Virus record (IMG/VR): IMGVR_UViG_3300009506_000173
Location: 1-27,443 of that record
Origin: a virus
Direction: 5' to 3' (one strand)
Length of the DNA stretch: 27,443 bases
A program made the translations under genes and the position numbers. Below the pieces are notes generated by a model. The model ran no database searches, was not told the DNA's origin, and was given only the letters and a program-made list of their open reading frames with translations. Position 1 is the first letter of the stretch. The number at the start of each line of letters is the position of its first letter. Positions 4,150 to 27,430 of this stretch are shown here, one piece after another.

Positions 4150-5403
4150 CTATGTGAAAGTAATTACAAGTGCCGCCCATGAATGTAACGGCTTGTATTT
4201 TAAAATCAAACGTAGAAATTCATCCTCGCGGGTTCCGTCGACCGTTGCGTTAGCTATTGCCGTTATGGATTGCTTGTCCGATCTGTAAAGCTCGACATCA
4301 TCCATAAAAGCCGTCCCCGTAGGAGTTCCATCCCATTCATGCCTTATCCTTATCTTGCGTGCGCTGATGGGAATATCATAATCAGCATTGAAAGTCGGGT
4401 ACCCGATTGTTTTCTCCAGTTGTTCGTATCCTGAAGTCACAGCCGTCTTATCCAGAAGCGTGATAGAAGATATCAACATATCATCGGCGTCCCTGAATTC
4501 TAGGATATTCTTATAATTGCCGGCCGTATAAGCTGTCACATCATTTTTTATTTTTACTGTATAAAGCCGAAGCGGATCGATATCGTATGATATGCTTTCG
4601 GCTCCTAAAAGATCCGCACCGATAGCCACAAGTTTTGAACAATAGGTCCCGGATGCCGGATTGATATTATCGATCGTAGAATTGTTTTGGGTCCAATCCG
4701 AAAAGCTGCCTGTTTCAAATCCTCCATTACTGATTAAATCGATATAACCATATGTGGCCGTGCCTCCGACAAAAAAGACAAATGGCCAATCGCCTGCTTC
4801 TGTCGGTATCGGATATTCTATTCGTTCGATTATCACGTCATCATATTCTCCAGCGCCATGTCCAATTCCTGCATATATGGTTCCGGCAACCGAAGTGAAT
4901 ATTTTTCTGGTTTTAAAAATTTCTCCATTTACAAGAAGAACCCCACCCGACCTTCCGGCAAAGGCATCATCCCTTCCGGCATATGCATTTCCTCCACCCG
5001 CTACCATTTGGAAAAGCTGGTCAAGGATCACTGCAGGATCTATCGTTGGGTCATTTTCATAAACAAAAACATTAAAACCGGAATTGTCAAAGACATTCTG
5101 TAAATCATCTATGGTTCCCGTTCCCTGTTCTCTATAGGCAAGCTGTGCAAGTCTCTGGCGCCGGGTCGCTTCGCTTATAAGAGAATTGGTCGGGATCCCA
5201 TATTCCTTTTCCAAATCAGATAATATGGTGGTTTTATTAGGATTTCGGATGTCTTTAATATCGACAAGGAAAGCCCTGAGAAATTCCATGTTGTCAGCGA
5301 TACCATCTAAAAGCTGATCGAGTTTCTCTTCCTCTTCAGGTTCCCACAATAACCCAGGTGGCAGCGCGTCATCGAGCATTTGCCTCATTAAATCTCTAGA
5401 CAT
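4150..5403 (-). CDS. Mu gp48-like (YmfQ/DUF2313) baseplate protein with inserted carbohydrate-binding-like domain
   Basis: Residues 1-120 match the gp48/YmfQ family: DDALPPGLLW, ISEATRRQRLAQLAYREQGTGTIDDLQ and YENDP. The last 30 residues (FLRLILKYKPLHSWAALVI) are the usual end of this family. Members are usually about 200 residues; this one has 417. The extra part includes a Gly-rich stretch (AYAGRDDAFAGR) and, at about residues 222-375, a module starting ISNGGFETGSFSDWT and ending FMDDVELY. That is the opening and closing pattern of CBM4/9-like or galactose-binding beta sandwiches. Family role: part of the baseplate wedge/fibre connector. The inserted domain suggests direct glycan contact by the baseplate (inference). 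The start follows GGAGG by eight bases and overlaps the upstream gene by 8 bp. Confidence 0.87.
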   Translation of the reverse strand: MSRDLMRQMLDDALPPGLLWEPEEEEKLDQLLDGIADNMEFLRAFLVDIKDIRNPNKTTILSDLEKEYGIPTNSLISEATRRQRLAQLAYREQGTGTIDDLQNVFDNSGFNVFVYENDPTIDPAVILDQLFQMVAGGGNAYAGRDDAFAGRSGGVLLVNGEIFKTRKIFTSVAGTIYAGIGHGAGEYDDVIIERIEYPIPTEAGDWPFVFFVGGTATYGYIDLISNGGFETGSFSDWTQNNSTIDNINPASGTYCSKLVAIGADLLGAESISYDIDPLRLYTVKIKNDVTAYTAGNYKNILEFRDADDMLISSITLLDKTAVTSGYEQLEKTIGYPTFNADYDIPISARKIRIRHEWDGTPTGTAFMDDVELYRSDKQSITAIANATVDGTREDEFLRLILKYKPLHSWAALVITFT

Positions 5404-19446: not shown

Positions 19447-20463
19447 TCATGTTCCACCACCGCATCCGCCGTTATCTGCGGAAGTTTTACCGGTAGCAGG
19501 CTCAAAAGTTTTGCCATCGTGTGCCCTGCAATGCTTGCGGGCTTCAGAAGCCGACCAGATACCTTTTGGATATCTGAAGGCTTGCGTGGTTGTCGTGGTT
19601 TTTCCTTTAAGTTTGCCGATGATTATATCCAGCCTCTTCCCATCGGCTGTCCTGCTTATCCTTCGGAAACTGCCCTCGGCAAATTCCCCGGGTTCGCGCA
19701 CGCGACACGCGTGTTCGTTCGGGTAGGGGGCCTCGGGGTTGAACTCTTCTCCGGCGGAATAATCATCCTCTGAGAACTCGGACCAGTACTCGGCGGTTGC
19801 CGTTTCGGTTCCCTGGTCCAGAAGCGCGATGCTATCAACATAAGCAACGGCTTTGTCGATGTCCTTGTTAGCCGCTTCGTTGTTTTTGAGCAGCTTGAAG
19901 CAGTCCCGCACGGAAGCCTTGGCGACTAGAAGGGCCGTCTCCTTGTCGCGGTCCTCGACATCGTCTTCATCGGGATCCTCTAGAATCTCGTCAATGAAAC
20001 CTTCGCTCAGTATTTCATTTCCGAAAAGATAAGTTTCGTCATCCATGAGTTCTTTTACGGCGGCGAGTTCCTTCCCTGTTTTCTTGGCGTAAGCCTTGGC
20101 GAGAATGTTCGATAACTGCTCGAGCGTGTTTGCGGTCTTTCGCATATCGTTGTGATTGCCGGCAGTAATAGCCAGCGCGTTGTGGATCATAAAGATGGCG
20201 TTTTCATAGGCGCTCACCTTGTCGGCGGCGAGGACAATATAGGAACCCATGGAGGCGGCTATGCCCGTAATCCTTGCCTCGGTTTTTCCCTGGTATGCCC
20301 TTATGAGATTGAATATCTCGATGCCTTCAAAGACAAAGCCCCCGGGAGAATTGACAAGAAACACGACCGGCTTTCCCTTGGCCTTGGCAAGCTCCTCGCG
20401 TATGAAGCGCGCGGATATGCCACCCATCCCGATAGGTCCGCTCAGTACAATTTCAACCGCCAT
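19447..20463 (-). CDS. Head maturation protease (ClpP/S49-like), with extra C-terminal domain
   Basis: The N-terminal 170 residues follow the ClpP-like head protease pattern: VVFLVNSPGGFVFEGIEIFNLIR, ITGIAASMGSYIVLAAD with nucleophile Ser71, FMIHNAL with His94, and MDDETYLFGNEILSEGFIDEI with candidate acid Asp141 or Asp142. It cleaves scaffold and prohead parts during head maturation. Residues about 170-235 are an acidic linker, and residues about 245-320 (CRVREPGEF, FRRISRTADGKRLDIIIGKLKGK..., QAFRYPKGIWSASEARKHCRAHDGK) form a small domain seen fused to phage head proteins. GGAGG precedes the start, and a possible promoter lies at 20515-20542. Confidence 0.93.
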   Translation of the reverse strand: MAVEIVLSGPIGMGGISARFIREELAKAKGKPVVFLVNSPGGFVFEGIEIFNLIRAYQGKTEARITGIAASMGSYIVLAADKVSAYENAIFMIHNALAITAGNHNDMRKTANTLEQLSNILAKAYAKKTGKELAAVKELMDDETYLFGNEILSEGFIDEILEDPDEDDVEDRDKETALLVAKASVRDCFKLLKNNEAANKDIDKAVAYVDSIALLDQGTETATAEYWSEFSEDDYSAGEEFNPEAPYPNEHACRVREPGEFAEGSFRRISRTADGKRLDIIIGKLKGKTTTTTQAFRYPKGIWSASEARKHCRAHDGKTFEPATGKTSADNGGCGGGT

Positions 20464-20514
20464 GCGGGGCCTCCTGTCTTGTCAGATTTGCAATGAAATC
20501 CATCCCTGTCATAT

Positions 20515-20542
20515 TTTGTATTATCTTCTTTAATTTTGTCAA
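20515..20542 (-). promoter_or_regulatory. Possible promoter ahead of the head protease gene
   Basis: In the 86-bp gap before the protease gene a perfect TTGACA (minus strand, 20542-20537) is followed at 16 bp by TACAAA (20520-20515, 4 of 6 matches to TATAAT), in strongly AT-rich DNA unlike its neighbours. It would give a late transcript starting at the head genes. No terminator is visible before it. Confidence 0.55.
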
Positions 20543-20549
20543 GTTTTCG

Positions 20550-20876
20550 TCACTTCTCCAAAACCTGAATTTGCGTGCCCTCGGCAGGCGCAAAGGTGTC
20601 AATATTTGCCCCCGCGTCCTCGCGTTCTATCCAGTAAAGACTATCCGAAGACGTCGCGGGCATGACTATCTCAAATTCAAAACGCCCATCGGTTCCCGTG
20701 GGGATTGTAGCCTCCACCGGATCTATCGTATAAGCCGCGTCCCCCGGTTCGTCCTTGGCGTAAAAACGAATGGTCAGGCCCGTTATATCCACAGGCGTCA
20801 CGCCGTCTGCCTCGAACAGGCGAAACTTCAGGGTCTTCGTGTCGTTCACGTTAAACTTCAGGATCGGAAGGCTCAT
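20550..20876 (-). CDS. BppU-like immunoglobulin-type beta protein (108 aa)
   Basis: The start is placed at 20876 because this ATG overlaps the upstream stop by ATGA; three residues earlier is possible. The product follows the N-terminal domain pattern of BppU-type baseplate upper proteins: FNVNDTKTLKFRLFEADGVTPVDITGLTIRFYAKDEPG, a YTIDPVEATI strand and a GRFEFEIVMPA end. In lactococcal phages this domain joins host-binding proteins to the baseplate. Here it is alone and far from the baseplate genes, in a block of other beta-rich proteins. It may connect them to the virion (inference). Confidence 0.7.
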   Translation of the reverse strand: MSLPILKFNVNDTKTLKFRLFEADGVTPVDITGLTIRFYAKDEPGDAAYTIDPVEATIPTGTDGRFEFEIVMPATSSDSLYWIEREDAGANIDTFAPAEGTQIQVLEK

Positions 20877-21589
20877 GGTTCGCACCCCTCTAAAATTATT
20901 ATTTCCGCCGATTCGTAAACAGGCTCCTGCGGCAACTCGTAAGTAGCCGCGAAAGAGACAAGCGTTCCCGTATAGGCCCCCTCTGCGTAATCGGTTCCTA
21001 TTCTTACGTCTTCGGCGGACGGATAATCAACTACAAACATATTCATTATGGTTGGCATAATATTTACATTTGATGTTAATGATGTCCCGAGTACGGCGGC
21101 GGCCTTGCCTGTATTCTCCAAAGCGGTGACCGTCAACTTATAAAGCCCGGGCAAGTTCACGGCTGATATTTCTACGGGGGCATTTGTCGCGGCTGCACTT
21201 GCGTTGTCCTTTGCATAAATGATTGAATGGTTTATATCGTCAACCGTTGCGGGCACATTATTGAAGGTATCCCATGCCGTATAACAGGCAACGAACTCCA
21301 CACCAGGGACAAGCAAATCCGTGATGACAAGGGCGGGGATCAAATAGACATCTGCCGAGGCCGATACTCCTCCAAGTGCTATAAACTTGACCGTGGCGCT
21401 CTCTACATCATCCATCCGGACGCGATAGACACCACCACCTATCTCCTCGGGTAAGTTCAAAGGATCCGCGACAACACCATCAAGGACATATTTGAGCGTA
21501 TGATTTGCAGCATCGAGCAATGCAGGTTTATTGTTCGCACTATCCCATGCCACATAATAGATCCATACGGTCGTGCCATTCCTTATCAT
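20873..21589 (-). CDS. Tandem beta-domain protein, probable virion/adhesin part (238 aa)
   Basis: Two copies of one module make up most of the protein: residues about 8-90 (IYYVAWDSANNKPALLDAANH, VYRVRMDDVESATVKF) and about 97-182 (CYTAWDTFNNVPATVDDINH, LYKLTVTALENTGKAAAV). Each shares YxAWDxxNNxPAxxDxxNH and a GxYxxxV-type strand, the layout of a small immunoglobulin-like fold. The N-terminus has no signal peptide. It is followed by a third, weaker part (residues 190-238). The start shares one base with the stop before it (TGATG). Likely function: surface-exposed fibre or adhesin part. No family name can be given. Confidence 0.75.
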   Translation of the reverse strand: MIRNGTTVWIYYVAWDSANNKPALLDAANHTLKYVLDGVVADPLNLPEEIGGGVYRVRMDDVESATVKFIALGGVSASADVYLIPALVITDLLVPGVEFVACYTAWDTFNNVPATVDDINHSIIYAKDNASAAATNAPVEISAVNLPGLYKLTVTALENTGKAAAVLGTSLTSNVNIMPTIMNMFVVDYPSAEDVRIGTDYAEGAYTGTLVSFAATYELPQEPVYESAEIIILEGCEP

Positions 21590-22215
21590 CAGCGAACCCT
21601 CCCGAAAAGGTGAAAAGGCGTCTTAACCACGGCACGCAAGAGGTCTACGTTTCTCCAATCAGCATAAGCCTGACGTCCCGCAATATTTATATCACCATAT
21701 ACGCCCAGCGACGATGTATCGAATGAACGCACAATGGCCGATGAAAAAGATATGGTAGATTGCAAAGCCTCGCCCATAAATATACGGCATAGGCTTAAAT
21801 TACCTGTGCGGCTTATCTTCAGCGTGTACCAGATGTCTTCCAGGAAATAATAATTTGAACTTAGGCTATCCCATGCAGTTCCTGTCCATTGACCGAACGT
21901 AAATCGTCGGGTGGTTGAGGTATCCTTGAACGCCTGGAGAATGATATGCGCCTTTGCCGCCGCCATGGCCCGGTCCTCGATATCATTTACCATCAGGAAA
22001 GCCGATACGTTTGCAAACTGAATGGTACCGGAGCGCATTCTGAAGTCGATGGAAAATTCGCCAAAATCACCATCCCATACATCAATAGTATCGTCGGCAA
22101 TAAATTCGGTGTCATTTGCGGCTTCACAATTATCTATTGCGTACAGATTGGCATCGACAGTGCCCTTGCCGGTTCCGGAATTATGGATCCAATCTGTTAA
22201 GGTCTCATTGGCCAT
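21589..22215 (-). CDS. LamG/concanavalin-type beta-sandwich protein (208 aa)
   Basis: The sequence has the alternating strands and Trp/Asp pattern of jelly-roll lectin-like domains: WDGDFGEFSIDFRMRSG, AKAHIILQAFKDTSTTRRFTFGQWTGTAWDSL, DIWYTLKISRTGNLSLCRIF and LQSTISFSSAIVRSFDTSSLGVYG. The stretch WYTLKISRTG is typical of LamG-like modules. Such domains bind glycans or proteins. No enzyme motif is seen. It starts after an AAGGT site and is followed with a one-base overlap by the tandem beta gene. A receptor-contact role is inference. Confidence 0.72.
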   Translation of the reverse strand: MANETLTDWIHNSGTGKGTVDANLYAIDNCEAANDTEFIADDTIDVWDGDFGEFSIDFRMRSGTIQFANVSAFLMVNDIEDRAMAAAKAHIILQAFKDTSTTRRFTFGQWTGTAWDSLSSNYYFLEDIWYTLKISRTGNLSLCRIFMGEALQSTISFSSAIVRSFDTSSLGVYGDINIAGRQAYADWRNVDLLRAVVKTPFHLFGRVR

Positions 22216-22216
22216 G

Positions 22217-22705
22217 TCATACCTTATCGAGGTCTATAAATCTGTCCCACCATGTATCATGCGCCGCTTGTATACTGGCAAGACGAAGTGCCCATTCCAC
22301 TGTATCGTTCATCCTGCCACCGTTGGCGTCAGCGTATTCACCACGAAGCGCCCAATGATGCGCCAGGAGAGATCCGCTGTTATCCTCAATTGGTCGACCG
22401 GTAATCTGATTTGATGGATTGGCTATCACGCCCTGTCCTATCTGATCGAGATCGATAAGAAATGGCGGTATACCGCCAATAACAAACGAGCGGGTGAACG
22501 CATCATTGGCCGCATCATCGCGCCTCGCTATGATCCTGAGTTCTTTAGGCGACCACACGTTCAGGAACCAGCTCCTGAATTCCTCCGCGTTCACCGTCAA
22601 TCTATACGATTCATGCCAGAGACGCATCAGTTCCATCATGCGCTCACAGAAATGTATCCGCTGGCCCTGATTGATGCACGATGCAGGAAAGAAATCCCCG
22701 TTCAT
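22217..22705 (-). CDS. Unknown protein next to the holin (162 aa)
   Basis: The ATG at 22705 is the start: it overlaps the holin stop by TAATG, and AAGGAA lies just upstream. A start at 22810 would lie inside the holin gene. The product begins MNGDFFPASCINQGQRIHFCER and is mostly helical with several Trp (SWFLNVWSPKELRIIARRDD, HHWALRGEYADAN, WALRLASIQAAHDTWWDR). It has no signal peptide or membrane segment. I do not recognise it. Its place between lysis and beta-sandwich genes suggests a structural role, but nothing proves it. Confidence 0.72.
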   Translation of the reverse strand: MNGDFFPASCINQGQRIHFCERMMELMRLWHESYRLTVNAEEFRSWFLNVWSPKELRIIARRDDAANDAFTRSFVIGGIPPFLIDLDQIGQGVIANPSNQITGRPIEDNSGSLLAHHWALRGEYADANGGRMNDTVEWALRLASIQAAHDTWWDRFIDLDKV

Positions 22706-23334
22706 TAATATTCCTTGACAGATCCGATAATTTTTGCGGACAGGGCTCCAAGAATGGGGGACTGGTCCAATTCCCCCGCTTCGATGCGTTGCTTGACACC
22801 GCGATGCCATGAAGCAACCCCGAGAATGGCCCCAGGTATTCCGAAGAGAAAAGCCAGCTGTCCGATTATCCCCGGAATGTCTGCAAACAATTCCGTTTTA
22901 CCTTTGGATATTGAATACCCGATAAGGACGAAAATGCCGATGACCGCGACGACAAAAGCTATAGCGGAAACGAAACCCCAAAACGGGCGCCACGCGCCCG
23001 CCCACGGGTGTCCCTGTGAGGTTTCCGTGCGGATTGAAGCATTGACACTCTCGATGGTTTTTGCCTCTGCTTCCGCCTCTGCAATGGCCGCCTGAAGACT
23101 CAGACGCTGAAGCTCCGCCCTGTTGTTTTCCTGCAATTCCATGAGGCGCATTTTCTGCTCCGGCGTCGCGTTTACAAGGGCCGCCGCTATATTGTCAGGA
23201 TTGCCATCGGTCCCGAGCGCGTCCCCTATCCATCCGCCGACCATGCCACCTGCGGGACCGCCCAAAGCCGTCCCGAGCACGGGCGCTATCTTTCCTAGCC
23301 CTTCCTTTACCTTGTCCCATGTTTTCGAACCCAT
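22705..23334 (-). CDS. Holin of the three-TM type (Holin_3TM/GTA holin-like)
   Basis: A 209-residue protein with the pattern of the GTA-type 3TM holin family: a Gly-rich N-terminal segment (LGGPAGGMVGGWIGDALG, residues 24-41), a helical stretch, then TSQGHPWAGAWRPFWGFVSA at residues about 105-124, one clear hydrophobic helix (about 121-141), and another (about 152-176). The HPW..AWRPFWG motif is the family hallmark. Holins form membrane holes that release the endolysin at lysis time. The gene follows the amidase gene by 1 bp and has GGAGG before its ATG. It lies in the lysis block, which supports the call. Confidence 0.88.
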   Translation of the reverse strand: MGSKTWDKVKEGLGKIAPVLGTALGGPAGGMVGGWIGDALGTDGNPDNIAAALVNATPEQKMRLMELQENNRAELQRLSLQAAIAEAEAEAKTIESVNASIRTETSQGHPWAGAWRPFWGFVSAIAFVVAVIGIFVLIGYSISKGKTELFADIPGIIGQLAFLFGIPGAILGVASWHRGVKQRIEAGELDQSPILGALSAKIIGSVKEY

Positions 23335-23335
23335 G

Positions 23336-23941
23336 TTATCCTCCGTTTTGGTTTATCGCTACCATTGCCGCAAGGTGAGCCATGGCGACTTTGTCGCGGG
23401 CCTCTTCATCGAGAAGGTAGCGAGTGAGTTCTTCGCGGTTATCCATAAAGAAATTCTCTGTCAGGATTGCCGGCATTTTCGTGTTCTTCAGGACATGGAA
23501 GCCGGCCTCCTTGTCAACATCCCCGTCCTGCATATCCGTGCGCTTGCGCGCCTCGGGGAATGCCTTGTGCATCTTCTCAAGGAAAACCGTGGCCAGCGGA
23601 TCTGCGGGGGTATCGCCCGGAGATGTCCAGACTTCGATGCCATGGCCTCCACCGGCATTCACATGAATAGAGACATAAACGCATAGAGAGCCGTATTTAT
23701 CATAAAGGCGGTTCGCTATCGAAACGCGCTCGGCAAGAAAAACATCCTCCTCCGTGTCCACAAGGTTAAAAGCTGTCACCCCGAAGAGGTACGCCCATTT
23801 CATGATACGCTTGACGATTGCCCGATTGAATTCCCCCTCATAAAAAGGAAGGTCGTCAAAAGGGGAACGCTTGCCGGCTGTTTGCGGATATCCGTTTATG
23901 ATACCGCCGTGGCCCGGGTCCAAAATGAACAGTTTCTCCAT
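23336..23941 (-). CDS. N-acetylmuramoyl-L-alanine amidase (Amidase_3), endolysin
   Basis: The enzyme cuts the amide bond between muramic acid and L-alanine in peptidoglycan. All zinc-site motifs of Amidase_3 are present: LDPGHGG (His11), YEGEFNRA (Glu35), YVSIHVNAG (His93) and the catalytic TENFFMDN (Glu162). The 201 residues are a single catalytic domain with no cell-wall-binding repeats and no signal peptide, as for endolysins released through a holin. AAGGAGG lies three bases before the ATG, closer than usual. The neighbouring 3TM holin gene starts 1 bp downstream. Confidence 0.94.
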   Translation of the reverse strand: MEKLFILDPGHGGIINGYPQTAGKRSPFDDLPFYEGEFNRAIVKRIMKWAYLFGVTAFNLVDTEEDVFLAERVSIANRLYDKYGSLCVYVSIHVNAGGGHGIEVWTSPGDTPADPLATVFLEKMHKAFPEARKRTDMQDGDVDKEAGFHVLKNTKMPAILTENFFMDNREELTRYLLDEEARDKVAMAHLAAMVAINQNGG

Positions 23942-23950
23942 AATCCTCCT

Positions 23951-24343
23951 TCAGCTACCGAGAGATTCGGCGGCTATGGCTTTGGGTTTACTATCATAAA
24001 GGCCGTCAACTCTTGAATGGACGGCACGGAAGTCGGCCTTGACGTCTTTTTTGAACTCTTTGACATCGTCCTTCATCTCTTTTTTAAAGTCCCGAATATC
24101 TACTTTCAAGCCCGTGAAACCGTCGCGGATCTCTTGCCTGAAGTCTTCATCGTCACGGATAACACGAGACATTTCTTCTTTGCATTTCTCTGTGGTGACG
24201 GCTTTATCGGATTTGTCCTCCACCCGGGTCATCCAGCGTCTTATTAGCCAGATAAAAAATCCGATAATGCCACTGCCAACTACCATAAACATAAAATTTA
24301 TCGCGCCCGATATAAATATTTTTGTCAGGTCCGCGTCGTTCAT
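23951..24343 (-). CDS. Membrane-anchored coiled-coil protein, spanin- or holin-accessory-like (130 aa)
   Basis: One membrane helix lies at about residues 9-34 (IFISGAINFMFMVVGSGIIGFFIWLI), followed by RRW and a charged coiled coil (residues 60-115) with three repeats of the type DxRDFKKEMKDDVKEFKKDVKADF. The layout N-TM then coiled coil matches inner spanins (Rz-like) and lysis-associated small membrane proteins. The gene is just upstream of the amidase. No Rz1-like nested outer spanin is seen. The lipoprotein at 1933 is a distant alternative partner. The start shares one base with the upstream stop (TAATG). Confidence 0.72.
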   Translation of the reverse strand: MNDADLTKIFISGAINFMFMVVGSGIIGFFIWLIRRWMTRVEDKSDKAVTTEKCKEEMSRVIRDDEDFRQEIRDGFTGLKVDIRDFKKEMKDDVKEFKKDVKADFRAVHSRVDGLYDSKPKAIAAESLGS

Positions 24344-24900
24344 TATGCTACCTCGAAATGGTCTGTTTTCATGGCAATTGTGCCAGCGCTTGAACCGTCG
24401 GTATTTGTAATTCTAACGAGGTATTTCTCTGTTGTTTTTAAAACTAGAATAATCGAATCCTCAGATGCCTCTCCAGAAGCGTTGGCAACTCCGGTGCCAT
24501 TTGAAGGCAAAAGAAGCTCCGCGAAAAGAGTGCCAGGAGCATTTATTATCGGTCCGGATCTTAATATTACCTCGCCGGGGCCGGCTATATTCATGTTTCG
24601 ATTGAAAGGTTGAAGCAAGGTACCATCATTATTGGCATCGGTTCCCCTGTAAATATCAACCGTAAAGGGTCCCCCAATACTATCAAAGGCCAAAGGCTGC
24701 AAAACCATGACATTACCTGTAAAGGATGTCGGATCAATTACAACATCCAAAACGCCTGATGCGGCTATGGAGAATCGTTTTCGGATTGACCACGCTATGC
24801 CCTCGACTGCTTTTGCGTCTTCTATTTTCAGCGATATCAGGGCATTGAAAGCACTGAATGCGCTGGCTAATGCTTTTAATACTCCGGAACCTATTCCCAT
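24343..24900 (-). CDS. Beta-rich virion-type protein of unknown function (185 aa)
   Basis: The first 40 residues are helical (VLKALASAFSAFNALISLKIEDAK), and the rest form strands: FTGNVMVLQPLAFDSIGGPFTVDIYRGTDAN, GPGEVILRSGPIINAPGTLFAELLLPS, SEDSIILVLKTTEKYLVRITNTDG. I have a weak memory of this QPLAFDS...VDIYRGTD...YLVRITNTD pattern in uncharacterised phage proteins found near fibre and structural genes. There is no enzyme motif, signal peptide or membrane segment. It overlaps both neighbours by TAATG. A surface-structure role is inferred from context only. Confidence 0.72.
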   Translation of the reverse strand: MGIGSGVLKALASAFSAFNALISLKIEDAKAVEGIAWSIRKRFSIAASGVLDVVIDPTSFTGNVMVLQPLAFDSIGGPFTVDIYRGTDANNDGTLLQPFNRNMNIAGPGEVILRSGPIINAPGTLFAELLLPSNGTGVANASGEASEDSIILVLKTTEKYLVRITNTDGSSAGTIAMKTDHFEVA

Positions 24901-25373
24901 TATATCACCAAGGTCACATAATCCAACTGCAGATTATGCGCCGCGTTGCCCCCTACTGGATGATATAGCCGCAAAACCACATCGCCGTTTTCATCTATGA
25001 AATCCGGCATAAGTGAAGGCGGAATATCAGAGTAGCGGTAGTTCAGGCCATTGCCTGTTTCGTAGGTATGCAGCTTTTTCCATGTCATCGAGTTATTATC
25101 GAAAAGCTGCACCTCTTCCCAATGAGTAGCGGAACCGGCATACGCCATGGAAATTCCGACGCGACGGAAGCTCTTGACACCCGTGAAGGTTATCACGGCA
25201 ACACTCCCGGGAGTAGCGGCGGCCTCTTGAATATTCAGGATATTGCCATCCTGCCATTGTTTTATATCATCCACGGTACCCGTGGGGGTTCCCGTTGAGA
25301 CATTCAGAGAGGAGGGAGCAAGGTGTAACTCGGGAAAGTTAATCCCAGGGCCGATACCGGCTCCTTGCTTCAT
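24900..25373 (-). CDS. Galactose-binding-like beta-sandwich protein (157 aa)
   Basis: Two starts are possible: 25394, which overlaps the upstream stop by ATGA, and 25373, which has GGGAGG about seven bases upstream; I prefer the second, and the difference is seven residues. The product has the strand order of F5/8-type or galactose-binding domains: VAVITFTGVKSFRRVGISMAYAG, HWEEVQLFDNNSMTWKKLHTYE, YRYSDIPP, and a final strand block with DVVLRLYHPVGGNAAHNLQLDYVTLVI. Family members bind sugars or surfaces. No signal peptide. It shares one base with the next gene. A host-surface contact role is inference. Confidence 0.72.
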   Translation of the reverse strand: MKQGAGIGPGINFPELHLAPSSLNVSTGTPTGTVDDIKQWQDGNILNIQEAAATPGSVAVITFTGVKSFRRVGISMAYAGSATHWEEVQLFDNNSMTWKKLHTYETGNGLNYRYSDIPPSLMPDFIDENGDVVLRLYHPVGGNAAHNLQLDYVTLVI

Positions 25374-25390
25374 TATGCCGCCTCCCCCTA

Positions 25391-25672
25391 TCATGCCTCT
25401 ACCCTGACCTCTCCGTCCTTCGTTCCTGTGAGCCAGACGTAAACATCAATCTGCTCCGAAGAACTGATAGTCTCGGCAGGACCGTCAAGGAAAATCTGTC
25501 CGCCCCTGAAATCTGCCTCGGCCGGCGCGGGATCTCCCGTGGGCACATACGTTGCAAGCCATCGTCCGCCCGCCGAACCTGGCTTTACCTTGCGAACTAC
25601 TCCGACGGTGACAGCCGTTGCTATCTTTACCGCCTGTCCTTTAGTTACGGTCACAAAAGCTGGTGCCGCCAT
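25391..25672 (-). CDS. Small beta protein directly after the portal gene (93 aa)
   Basis: The start shares one base with the stop of the portal's second frame (TAATG). The product begins MAAPAFVTVTKGQAVKIA, has a Gly-rich turn (KPGSAGGRW), then strands LATYVPTG, RGGQIFLDG, and IDVYVWLTGTKDGEVRVEA. The composition is that of a small beta barrel or immunoglobulin-like domain. I do not recognise a family. Its tight coupling to the portal reading frame suggests that translation of the portal's C-terminal segment matters for its expression. Confidence 0.7.
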   Translation of the reverse strand: MAAPAFVTVTKGQAVKIATAVTVGVVRKVKPGSAGGRWLATYVPTGDPAPAEADFRGGQIFLDGPAETISSSEQIDVYVWLTGTKDGEVRVEA

Positions 25673-25959
25673 TATTTGCCCTCCCTGTTTTCAAGTTCAT
25701 CCGCAACGGCTTCTGCTATTTCATCCACCATTGCCGCCGCTTGTCTGTCCGGATTTCCACCTGTGCCGGCGCCTGGTTTCTGCCATGGGGGAGGAACCTT
25801 CTCGCCGTATTCGTGCTCAAGCTGTACGCGGTTCGATTCCGCGTCGCTGCCATTAAGGTCGCTGGCTTCTCGCTCCATGGTAGTCAAGCCGAGGCTTAGA
25901 TTTTCGCGCCTTGCCTTGGCCGTCTTCGACGGGTCAATTGTCCGGCATGGGGGCACCAC
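25672..25959 (-). CDS. Portal C-terminal segment in the +1 frame (frameshifted from the portal)
   Basis: This frame continues the portal homology that the main ORF loses at its stop (25934-25936). After TIDPSKTAKARREN come LGLTTMEREASDLNGSDAE and HEYGEK, the usual end of lambda-type portals (compare the family pattern DPxKxxxA...GLxTxExEAxxxGxDxxE). There is no ribosome binding site for a separate start, and the only candidates are GTG or an internal ATG. Removing one C from the five-C run at 25949-25953 joins the frames into one portal of about 585 residues. It is therefore part of the portal, either through a real or programmed frameshift or a base error in the sequence. Confidence 0.75.
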   Translation of the reverse strand: MVPPCRTIDPSKTAKARRENLSLGLTTMEREASDLNGSDAESNRVQLEHEYGEKVPPPWQKPGAGTGGNPDRQAAAMVDEIAEAVADELENREGK

Positions 25960-27430
25960 GCCATGTCCCGTGAAGCCATGCCGCCTTCAGAACGGGGTCG
26001 CTCCATCCAGGGGCCTCGATACGTCCGGCCGCGATCTCGCCGGAAAGCCACATCTCGAATATAGGGTCGCCGTCGTCGGCAGCCCATTCGTGCCTCCATA
26101 TATTCACGTTGCGCCAGAAGAGGATTAACGTCGCGCGCGACGCGGAGTAGTTCTGGTTGAATCTCATCAGGACTACTTCAAGCGGAATGCCGGCGGCCGC
26201 CGAGAGGTAATACATAAAGGCGTCCACAAACTTGTCGAAGGAATCGACCGGGGCGTTTGGATTAAACGGTTTGACCTGGTCGCCCTGCCCTGCGTTAAGG
26301 ATCCACATAGAGCCAGGGACATCTGCCGTGAACTCCGGCTTCTGGTAGCACTGAAGTTCCTTCGGAACATTCAAGGCATCGGCGGCGGGGGTCGGGGTAC
26401 TGCCGAACTGTTGTGCCGCCGCGCCTCCGCCGAAGGTCGTAAGCCCTTCGCGGAAAATGTGCGTGGGGTCGAAGTCCTTATTTTCTACGGAAGCGACAAT
26501 CATCGACTGGTTTATGGCCTTCTTGATATGAGCTTCCTTGAAGTCCGTGATGTTTTCAAGGCCCTGAATGGCAAATCCGATACGGGAATAGCCACGTCCT
26601 TGCCCTGCATATTCGGGGCGGAAGCCGTGAATCATAAAGAGGCGTTTGGACTTCGGCCCCTTGCGCTGGATAGTCACGGTCTTGAAGGATCCCTGACCGT
26701 CGCGCGCGTGTACGCGATAAGACTTCTCGCGCCCGCGTTCGTCGCGCTCTATGCCGTCGTAAAGGTTCTCCATGTACTCGCCGTATGTGCCCGAATATCC
26801 GTGGCCCGTTATCTGGTCCGGGTCCAGGAACTCCCACTGCAACGGGTTCTGTAGATCCTTCTCCGGGGAATAATAAAGACGGCGGAAGATGTCATTGTCT
26901 CGATGCTGAAAAATCATATAGAGGTGCTGCGATTGGTAGAACGTCATCGTCTCGCTGCGGTGATGCTTCTTATCACGGCACCATAAGTCAAAACGGGTGT
27001 CCGTATTTCTTGCCCATTCCCTTGCGCGCTCGGGCGTGATCCCTAATATCTCCGCGCGGGGGCTTGACTCGCGGACCAGCGCGACATCCGCGATGCTGTC
27101 GGCGTACCTGTCAATAATTGCCCGGGCTTGCGGACTATCATGATAGATGTCGCGGGCATTAAGCCGCATGCGGGTATGATTGATAACACGACTCCGGCCT
27201 GCATTGGAAAGCCCATAGGGCCAGCCGGCTCCACCGCTTCGGCTACCGGCATAGAATGCGCCATCGGTGTTATGATAGGCAACCGGCTGCGCTCCCCGGG
27301 AGAGAATATCCAGCTGCTCAAGTCCGGAATTTATGACGGCGTTCTTGATCTCGACGCCCCTGTTTCTGATGGCACTCACAAAATCGCGTGCGAAGATCTC
27401 CTCATAGCTTGGCCTGTAGCCGTTACCCAT
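25934..27430 (-). CDS. Portal protein (lambda gpB family), main reading frame
   Basis: The dodecameric portal ring forms the DNA entry and exit vertex of the head. The 498-residue frame shows the lambda-family pattern: an N-terminal YEEIFARDF, RDIYHDSPQARAIIDRYADSIADVAL, WEFLDPDQITG, LFMIHGFRPEYAGQGRGYSRIGFAIQGLENITDFKEAHIKKA, then SFDKFVDAFMYYLSAAAGIPLEVVLMRFNQNYSASRATLILFWRN and the WLHGTWRGAP end. GAGGAG lies seven bases before the ATG, close to the window edge. The frame ends early, and the C-terminal 85 or so residues continue in the next frame (25672-25959). The terminase genes would lie beyond the right edge. Confidence 0.94.
   Translation of the reverse strand: MGNGYRPSYEEIFARDFVSAIRNRGVEIKNAVINSGLEQLDILSRGAQPVAYHNTDGAFYAGSRSGGAGWPYGLSNAGRSRVINHTRMRLNARDIYHDSPQARAIIDRYADSIADVALVRESSPRAEILGITPERAREWARNTDTRFDLWCRDKKHHRSETMTFYQSQHLYMIFQHRDNDIFRRLYYSPEKDLQNPLQWEFLDPDQITGHGYSGTYGEYMENLYDGIERDERGREKSYRVHARDGQGSFKTVTIQRKGPKSKRLFMIHGFRPEYAGQGRGYSRIGFAIQGLENITDFKEAHIKKAINQSMIVASVENKDFDPTHIFREGLTTFGGGAAAQQFGSTPTPAADALNVPKELQCYQKPEFTADVPGSMWILNAGQGDQVKPFNPNAPVDSFDKFVDAFMYYLSAAAGIPLEVVLMRFNQNYSASRATLILFWRNVNIWRHEWAADDGDPIFEMWLSGEIAAGRIEAPGWSDPVLKAAWLHGTWRGAPMPDN

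Follow-up and report, generated by a model that had tools for sequence, protein, structure and literature searches.

The window, by which we mean the whole stretch of DNA analysed here (an IMG/VR record, 27,443 bases long), is part of the genome of an uncultured phage with a contractile tail; its late genes all lie on the minus strand. They run from the portal gene through the block described below to an S14 protease, p147, an HDPD-type decoration protein and the capsid, and then into a tail part with sheath, tape measure, baseplate hub and wedges, and tail fibre; portal (PF05136), protease, decoration protein and capsid follow one another as in a lambda-type head module. Beyond the tail genes, on the opposite strand, lies a peptide deformylase gene (PF01327, 3e-26; 1070-1483, +). 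Portal and protease are not adjacent: ten same-strand genes, in the order p93, p164, p185, p130, endolysin, holin, p162, p208, p238 and p111, lie between the portal stop at 25672 and the protease start at 20463 (25672 to 20550, minus strand; Table 1). The separation of about 5.1 kb that an earlier note had read from the letters alone is confirmed by the portal (PF05136) and protease (phrog_94) matches on either side, and its "eight or so" genes come to ten, with endolysin and holin among them as it had said. The note had described all of them as coupled by overlaps of one to four bases. This is true of most junctions, the exceptions being a 9-base gap before the endolysin gene, 1-base gaps around the holin and p208 genes, and an 86-base gap before the protease gene, the only sizeable gap in the block.

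Table 1. Features of the portal-protease interval and its borders in the window
Feature	Position	Strand	Evidence or remark
Portal, lambda type	25672-27430	-	PF05136 1.2e-46; frame broken near 25939; 585-aa open frame in L002
p93, small beta-rich protein, proposed base/adaptor	25391-25672	-	Homologues behind portal, 12 loci
p164, CBM/galactose-binding-like jelly roll, N-terminal MIG peptide, proposed spike/adhesin	24900-25394	-	Fold match
p185, phrog_5335-like (1.7e-9), N-terminal IG peptide, proposed second spike or spike shaft	24343-24900	-	
p130, one N-terminal TM helix and coiled coil; i-spanin-like topology	23951-24343	-	
Endolysin, N-acetylmuramoyl-L-alanine amidase, Amidase_3	23336-23941	-	PF01520 4.9e-20
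Holin, GTA_holin_3TM / phrog_1544, 3 TM	22705-23334	-	PF11351 1e-6
p162	22217-22705	-	Start re-assigned to 22705; homologue p180 in L008
p208, beta-rich, lectin-like by reading only	21589-22215	-	
p238, two tandem ~80-aa Ig-like repeats	20873-21589	-	
p111/p108, weakly BppU_N-like beta protein	20550-20876	-	ATG at 20876
Promoter-like site: TTGACA, 18 nt, CAAAAT	20513-20542	-	Consensus match, before protease
Head maturation protease, S14/ClpP type	19447-20463	-	phrog_94 6e-61; downstream border of block

At the portal border, one extra base near 25939, either a genuine mutation or an error of assembly, interrupts the frame. Since the 99.8% identical contig L002 reads through this position over 585 aa, the apparent 95-aa gene at 25959-25672 is the C-terminus of the portal and no gene of its own. 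At the protease border, the TTGACA of the 86-base gap is kept in the window and in the related contigs L007 and L008, the flanking DNA being about 67% identical between the window and the other two; if the consensus match marks a promoter, it would separate expression of the capsid genes from the portal-block transcript. Two further observations concern these relatives. The C-terminal domain of the protease (window 19447-19720) is nearly identical in L007 and L008 despite differing N-terminal halves, and is 57% identical to a protein stretch in the otherwise unrelated contig L003. In the terminase-portal interval of L007 there is an 18-base tandem repeat of about 21 copies (4170-4546), of which L008 has a short remnant.

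To place the arrangement, a mixed portal profile was used to collect 80 IMG/VR loci, and HMMs served to measure the distance between portal and protease, the two genes being called adjacent when the gap was 50 bases or less. They were adjacent in 56 of the 59 distant loci that had both genes (25–30% portal identity), so the rule that lambda-type heads keep portal and protease together, on which the earlier note relied, stands and the rarity of the exception is real. The nearer group (38–58% portal identity) carried inserts of 0.5–5.7 kb in 8 of 12 loci. With the window, L007 and L008 included and L036 counted as adjacent, large gaps occur in 11 of 16 near loci against 3 of 59 distant ones (Fisher P 3e-7, which is only indicative because the contigs are related). 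Of the eight closest cultured portal relatives that were examined, seven likewise have portal and protease adjacent; Vibrio phi 2, Vibrio R19R, FP_Lagaffe, EalM-137, HFM1 and EcoM-473R2 share the order of portal, S14 protease, decoration protein, capsid and sheath but have the first two side by side, without the block. The exception is Pseudoalteromonas phage vB_Psp_PY6 (L017), with two unannotated beta-rich genes (90 and 180 aa) in its portal-protease interval (4541-5357) but no lysis genes there. These proteins were tested as homologues of p93 and p185, respectively, and no homology was detectable; as a cultured phage, PY6 is a possible accessible model for the same idea. No well-described phage group with the order of the window was found among the nearest cultured relatives or in literature searches, and its only other occurrences are in IMG/VR contigs that belong to no described group. 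Two scans of genome contigs for a host, with portal and terminase alignments, gave no relative, and viral searches with p111, p164 and p185 returned only contigs already found. The block is a clear exception to the rule of adjacency, and by the gap counts the insertion site belongs to the undescribed clade of the window and its relatives and not to lambda-type heads generally.

What fills the gap varies widely within the near group: L045 and L049 have glycosyltransferase-like genes there, L037 a LamG protein, and L038, L042 and L044 nothing. Such diversity fits ordinary mosaic insertion, in which the gap simply tolerates morons, lysis and beta genes are unconnected and the beta proteins need not be virion parts; unrelated genes inserted into head operons have been described in Microbacterium phages (PMC7302621). 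However, mosaic insertion predicts neither a p93 fixed behind the portal nor a peptide that recurs in the proteins after it (see below), and the order of the block is common to the window, L007 and L008 although their p93, p164, p185 and p111 are only 50–71% identical between the window and the other two. We consider this explanation rather unlikely.

A profile search detected p93 in 12 loci and in none of the 62 distant ones; in 11 of the 12 its gene comes immediately after that of the portal, and in L052 one gene further on. L037 has two copies. In L040 the protease gene follows p93 directly, so p93 can occur without a spike. In L049 (6259-6924) and L045 (6019-6684) it is the glycosyltransferase-like genes, 50% identical to each other, that stand directly behind the portal and replace p93. 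No p93 homologue was found in Pfam, PHROGs, NCBIfam, the PDB or by tblastn against cultured phages, and the p93 profile gave only chance matches to unrelated proteins in the PDB; by these searches p93 is a new protein family. The proteins encoded after p93 are mostly unrelated beta proteins, yet their N-termini are alike: MIGGGG (p164), GIGSG (p185), MIGNKP (L005), VIGNKP and MIGNAG (L037), IIGDGG (L039), MIGGVK and MIGDGL (L046), LIGDGG (L047), MIGTGI (L051), and MIGKGI and FIGDLV (L052). The motif IG[DNGKTSQ] falls within the first 15 residues of 15 of 16 p93-linked proteins compared with 18 of 1089 other genes (P 5e-24, a post hoc value, as the motif had been seen before testing and some of the 16 proteins are mutually homologous). 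The beta proteins p208 and p238, further down the block, do not carry it. An N-terminal peptide shared by unrelated binding domains, encoded after a conserved small protein, has the look of an anchor.

The earlier note had named the folds of several beta proteins. Its galactose-binding-like protein is borne out by p164, whose model, of low confidence (pLDDT 54, pTM 0.54), matches galactose-binding and carbohydrate-binding jelly rolls: Foldseek against the PDB returned CBM29, CBM4, CBM36, CBM16, CBM6 and MAM domains (E of about 4e-4 to 2e-3, with CBM29, CBM4, CBM36 and CBM16 at 4e-4 to 1e-3; probability 1.0) as well as a phi812 baseplate protein, and BFVD matches include collagen-repeat and lectin fibre proteins of uncultured phages (best E 4.6e-9, 28% identity). 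Structure prediction was less informative for p185; its model is a beta-sandwich (mean pLDDT of the two models, 51–54) with no PDB fold match below E 1e-3. A p185 homologue, 37% identical, occurs in L046, and a match to an NRNRN-type protein of L052 (E 1e-3, probability 22%) is suggestive only. Sequence searches of the PDB gave nothing. The tandem immunoglobulin-like protein is p238, with two clear repeats of about 80 residues (36% identical, P 1e-8) and a C-terminal IIILEGCE tail common to p370 of L007. Two other assignments were not confirmed. The supposed LamG-like protein, p208, has no Pfam match, and the gathering score of PF13385 (Laminin_G_3) is not reached in the window; this family does occur in the same gap of L037 (8e-18) and of L093 (1e-6), which is without p93, as does the carbohydrate-binding family PF14262 in L050. 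For the BppU-like protein, p111, all three homologues score 13.4–16.4 bits for PF10651 against a gathering threshold of 23.1.

The lysis genes are identified by family. Endolysin and holin lie side by side, and both the PF01520 and PF11351 matches are above cut-off, which makes this part of the earlier reading firm. The spanin-like protein is not confirmed: the only candidate is the TM/coiled-coil protein p130, for which no family scores above chance (best spanin profile E 0.04), and the block contains no lipobox ORF that could encode a lipoprotein partner. Endolysins of the clade are of three unrelated kinds, Amidase_3 in the window, DUF5675 (3e-27) in L007 and, in L008, a 193-aa protein without a family that is a putative endolysin by its position. 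The p162 homologue of L008, p180, is at the same place and 37.6% identical; L007 has none. In the stretches read of Flavobacterium pippi8-1 and of the Vibrio cyclitrophicus prophages, no endolysin or holin relative lies between portal and protease, and the record of Alistipes AS73P1, which has no functional annotation, is uninformative on this point. Because the gap of the more distant L049 and L050 (38–39% portal identity) likewise holds a TM/coiled-coil gene, short membrane proteins and a probable endolysin, the two endolysins being 59% identical and that of L050 matching YkuD weakly, lysis genes may be an old feature of this site, though this is a weaker call.

The block was sought in related phage genomes and is present in L007 and L008, a pair that shows how it changes. 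Their DNA identity is 98% in the first 4.2 kb, 95.8% in the part that follows up to the end of p191, and 94.6% in the part that begins with p111. The segments between these flanks, 2.5 kb long in L007 and 3.2 kb long in L008, share a single stretch of 120 bases (78% identical), in the TM/coiled-coil gene. The swapped region begins at the start of this gene, ends just before p111 and differs in its endolysins, holins and lectin/Ig-like genes; the latter are p208 and p238 in the window, a fused p370 in L007, and p237 and p141 in L008, with p237 or the N-terminal part of p370 as the counterpart of p208. Judging from these alignments, only the segment comprising the TM/coiled-coil gene, endolysin, holin, p162, p208 and p238 is swapped as a unit, among near-identical phages. 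The proposal that the whole block behaves as one module therefore fails, since p93, p164, p185 and p111 remain linked to the head genes (p111 is conserved at 65–71% in the clade). Co-exchange of p208 and p238 with endolysin and holin would also be expected if the beta proteins were secreted or envelope-associated partners of the endolysin, binding wall or surface at exit and not being virion parts. Against this, p93, p164 and p185 do not move together with the lysis genes, the gaps of L037, L046, L051 and L052 hold p93 and beta proteins without a recognised endolysin, and a lipobox is missing from the block; we think it very unlikely.

We propose instead that the portal-protease junction is an insertion site with two layers, a spike layer that travels with the head genes and a lysis/lectin layer that is exchanged separately, and judge the chances of this to be about even. 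The first layer would consist of p93, p164 and p185, with p93 as a virion base or adaptor protein and the proteins after it as surface spikes with sugar-binding beta domains, docked at a common site by their shared short IG peptide; docking of this kind would allow unrelated binding domains to be plugged in. Before engagement of the tail fibre, the spikes may bind host polysaccharide weakly and multivalently, in the manner of RcGTA head spikes (see below). The second layer, from the TM/coiled-coil gene to p238, would be swapped as one by recombination, which may match the wall-cutting enzyme and the surface-binding domains to the host envelope. The earlier suggestion of a cassette for host-surface contact and exit, or of capsid- or vertex-attached fibres, agrees with the CBM-like p164, the anchor-like IG peptide, the conserved p93 and the LamG and carbohydrate-binding domains of relatives; the single module does not stand.

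Where on the particle p93 and the IG proteins might sit is a separate matter. Genes for neck fibres often lie close to those for head completion, and the place of p93 next to the portal gene would suit whiskers or a collar at the head-tail junction, and not the capsid vertices. Gene neighbourhood, however, does not settle location in the particle, and the nearest described system of a base and a peptide is located on pentamer vertices (PMC7296036); we regard a neck or portal-proximal position as distinctly unlikely. That system is the head spike of RcGTA, with Rcc01079 as base and Rcc01080 as fibre on eleven pentamer vertices, and a first contact with polysaccharide has been proposed for it (PMC7296036, PMC10218006). 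Both systems pair a small beta protein with a separate beta fibre, which binds sugar in RcGTA and would do so here, and the RcGTA fibre is held by a short hydrophobic and glycine-containing N-terminal peptide, to which the shared IG peptide would correspond. Unlike in RcGTA, several unrelated putative fibres share the peptide here, and the genes lie between portal and protease, beside lysis genes. A profile of nine p93 sequences matched no RcGTA chain in the PDB up to E 10 and had no NCBIfam match; as p93 is no detectable homologue of the RcGTA base, the likeness is one of working and not of membership. Agrobacterium phage 7-7-1 also combines a contractile tail with extra head-attached fibres for first host contact, but it is flagellotropic, the gene for its fibre has not been identified and no homologue was detected (PMC12796354).

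It is a plausible extension, to which we give somewhat less than even weight, that p93, as a virion base protein of a kind not seen before, and the IG peptide form a general plug-in system for unrelated sugar-binding domains in this uncultured contractile-tailed clade, tied to an exchangeable lysis/lectin cassette. That lysis and lectin genes are swapped as a unit suggests joint selection of surface binding and wall cutting. If the proposal is true, interchangeable sugar-binding spikes plug into a virion site that is marked by a single small conserved protein together with a short peptide, and the IG peptide would make such spikes, unannotated ones included, findable in metagenomes by sequence alone.
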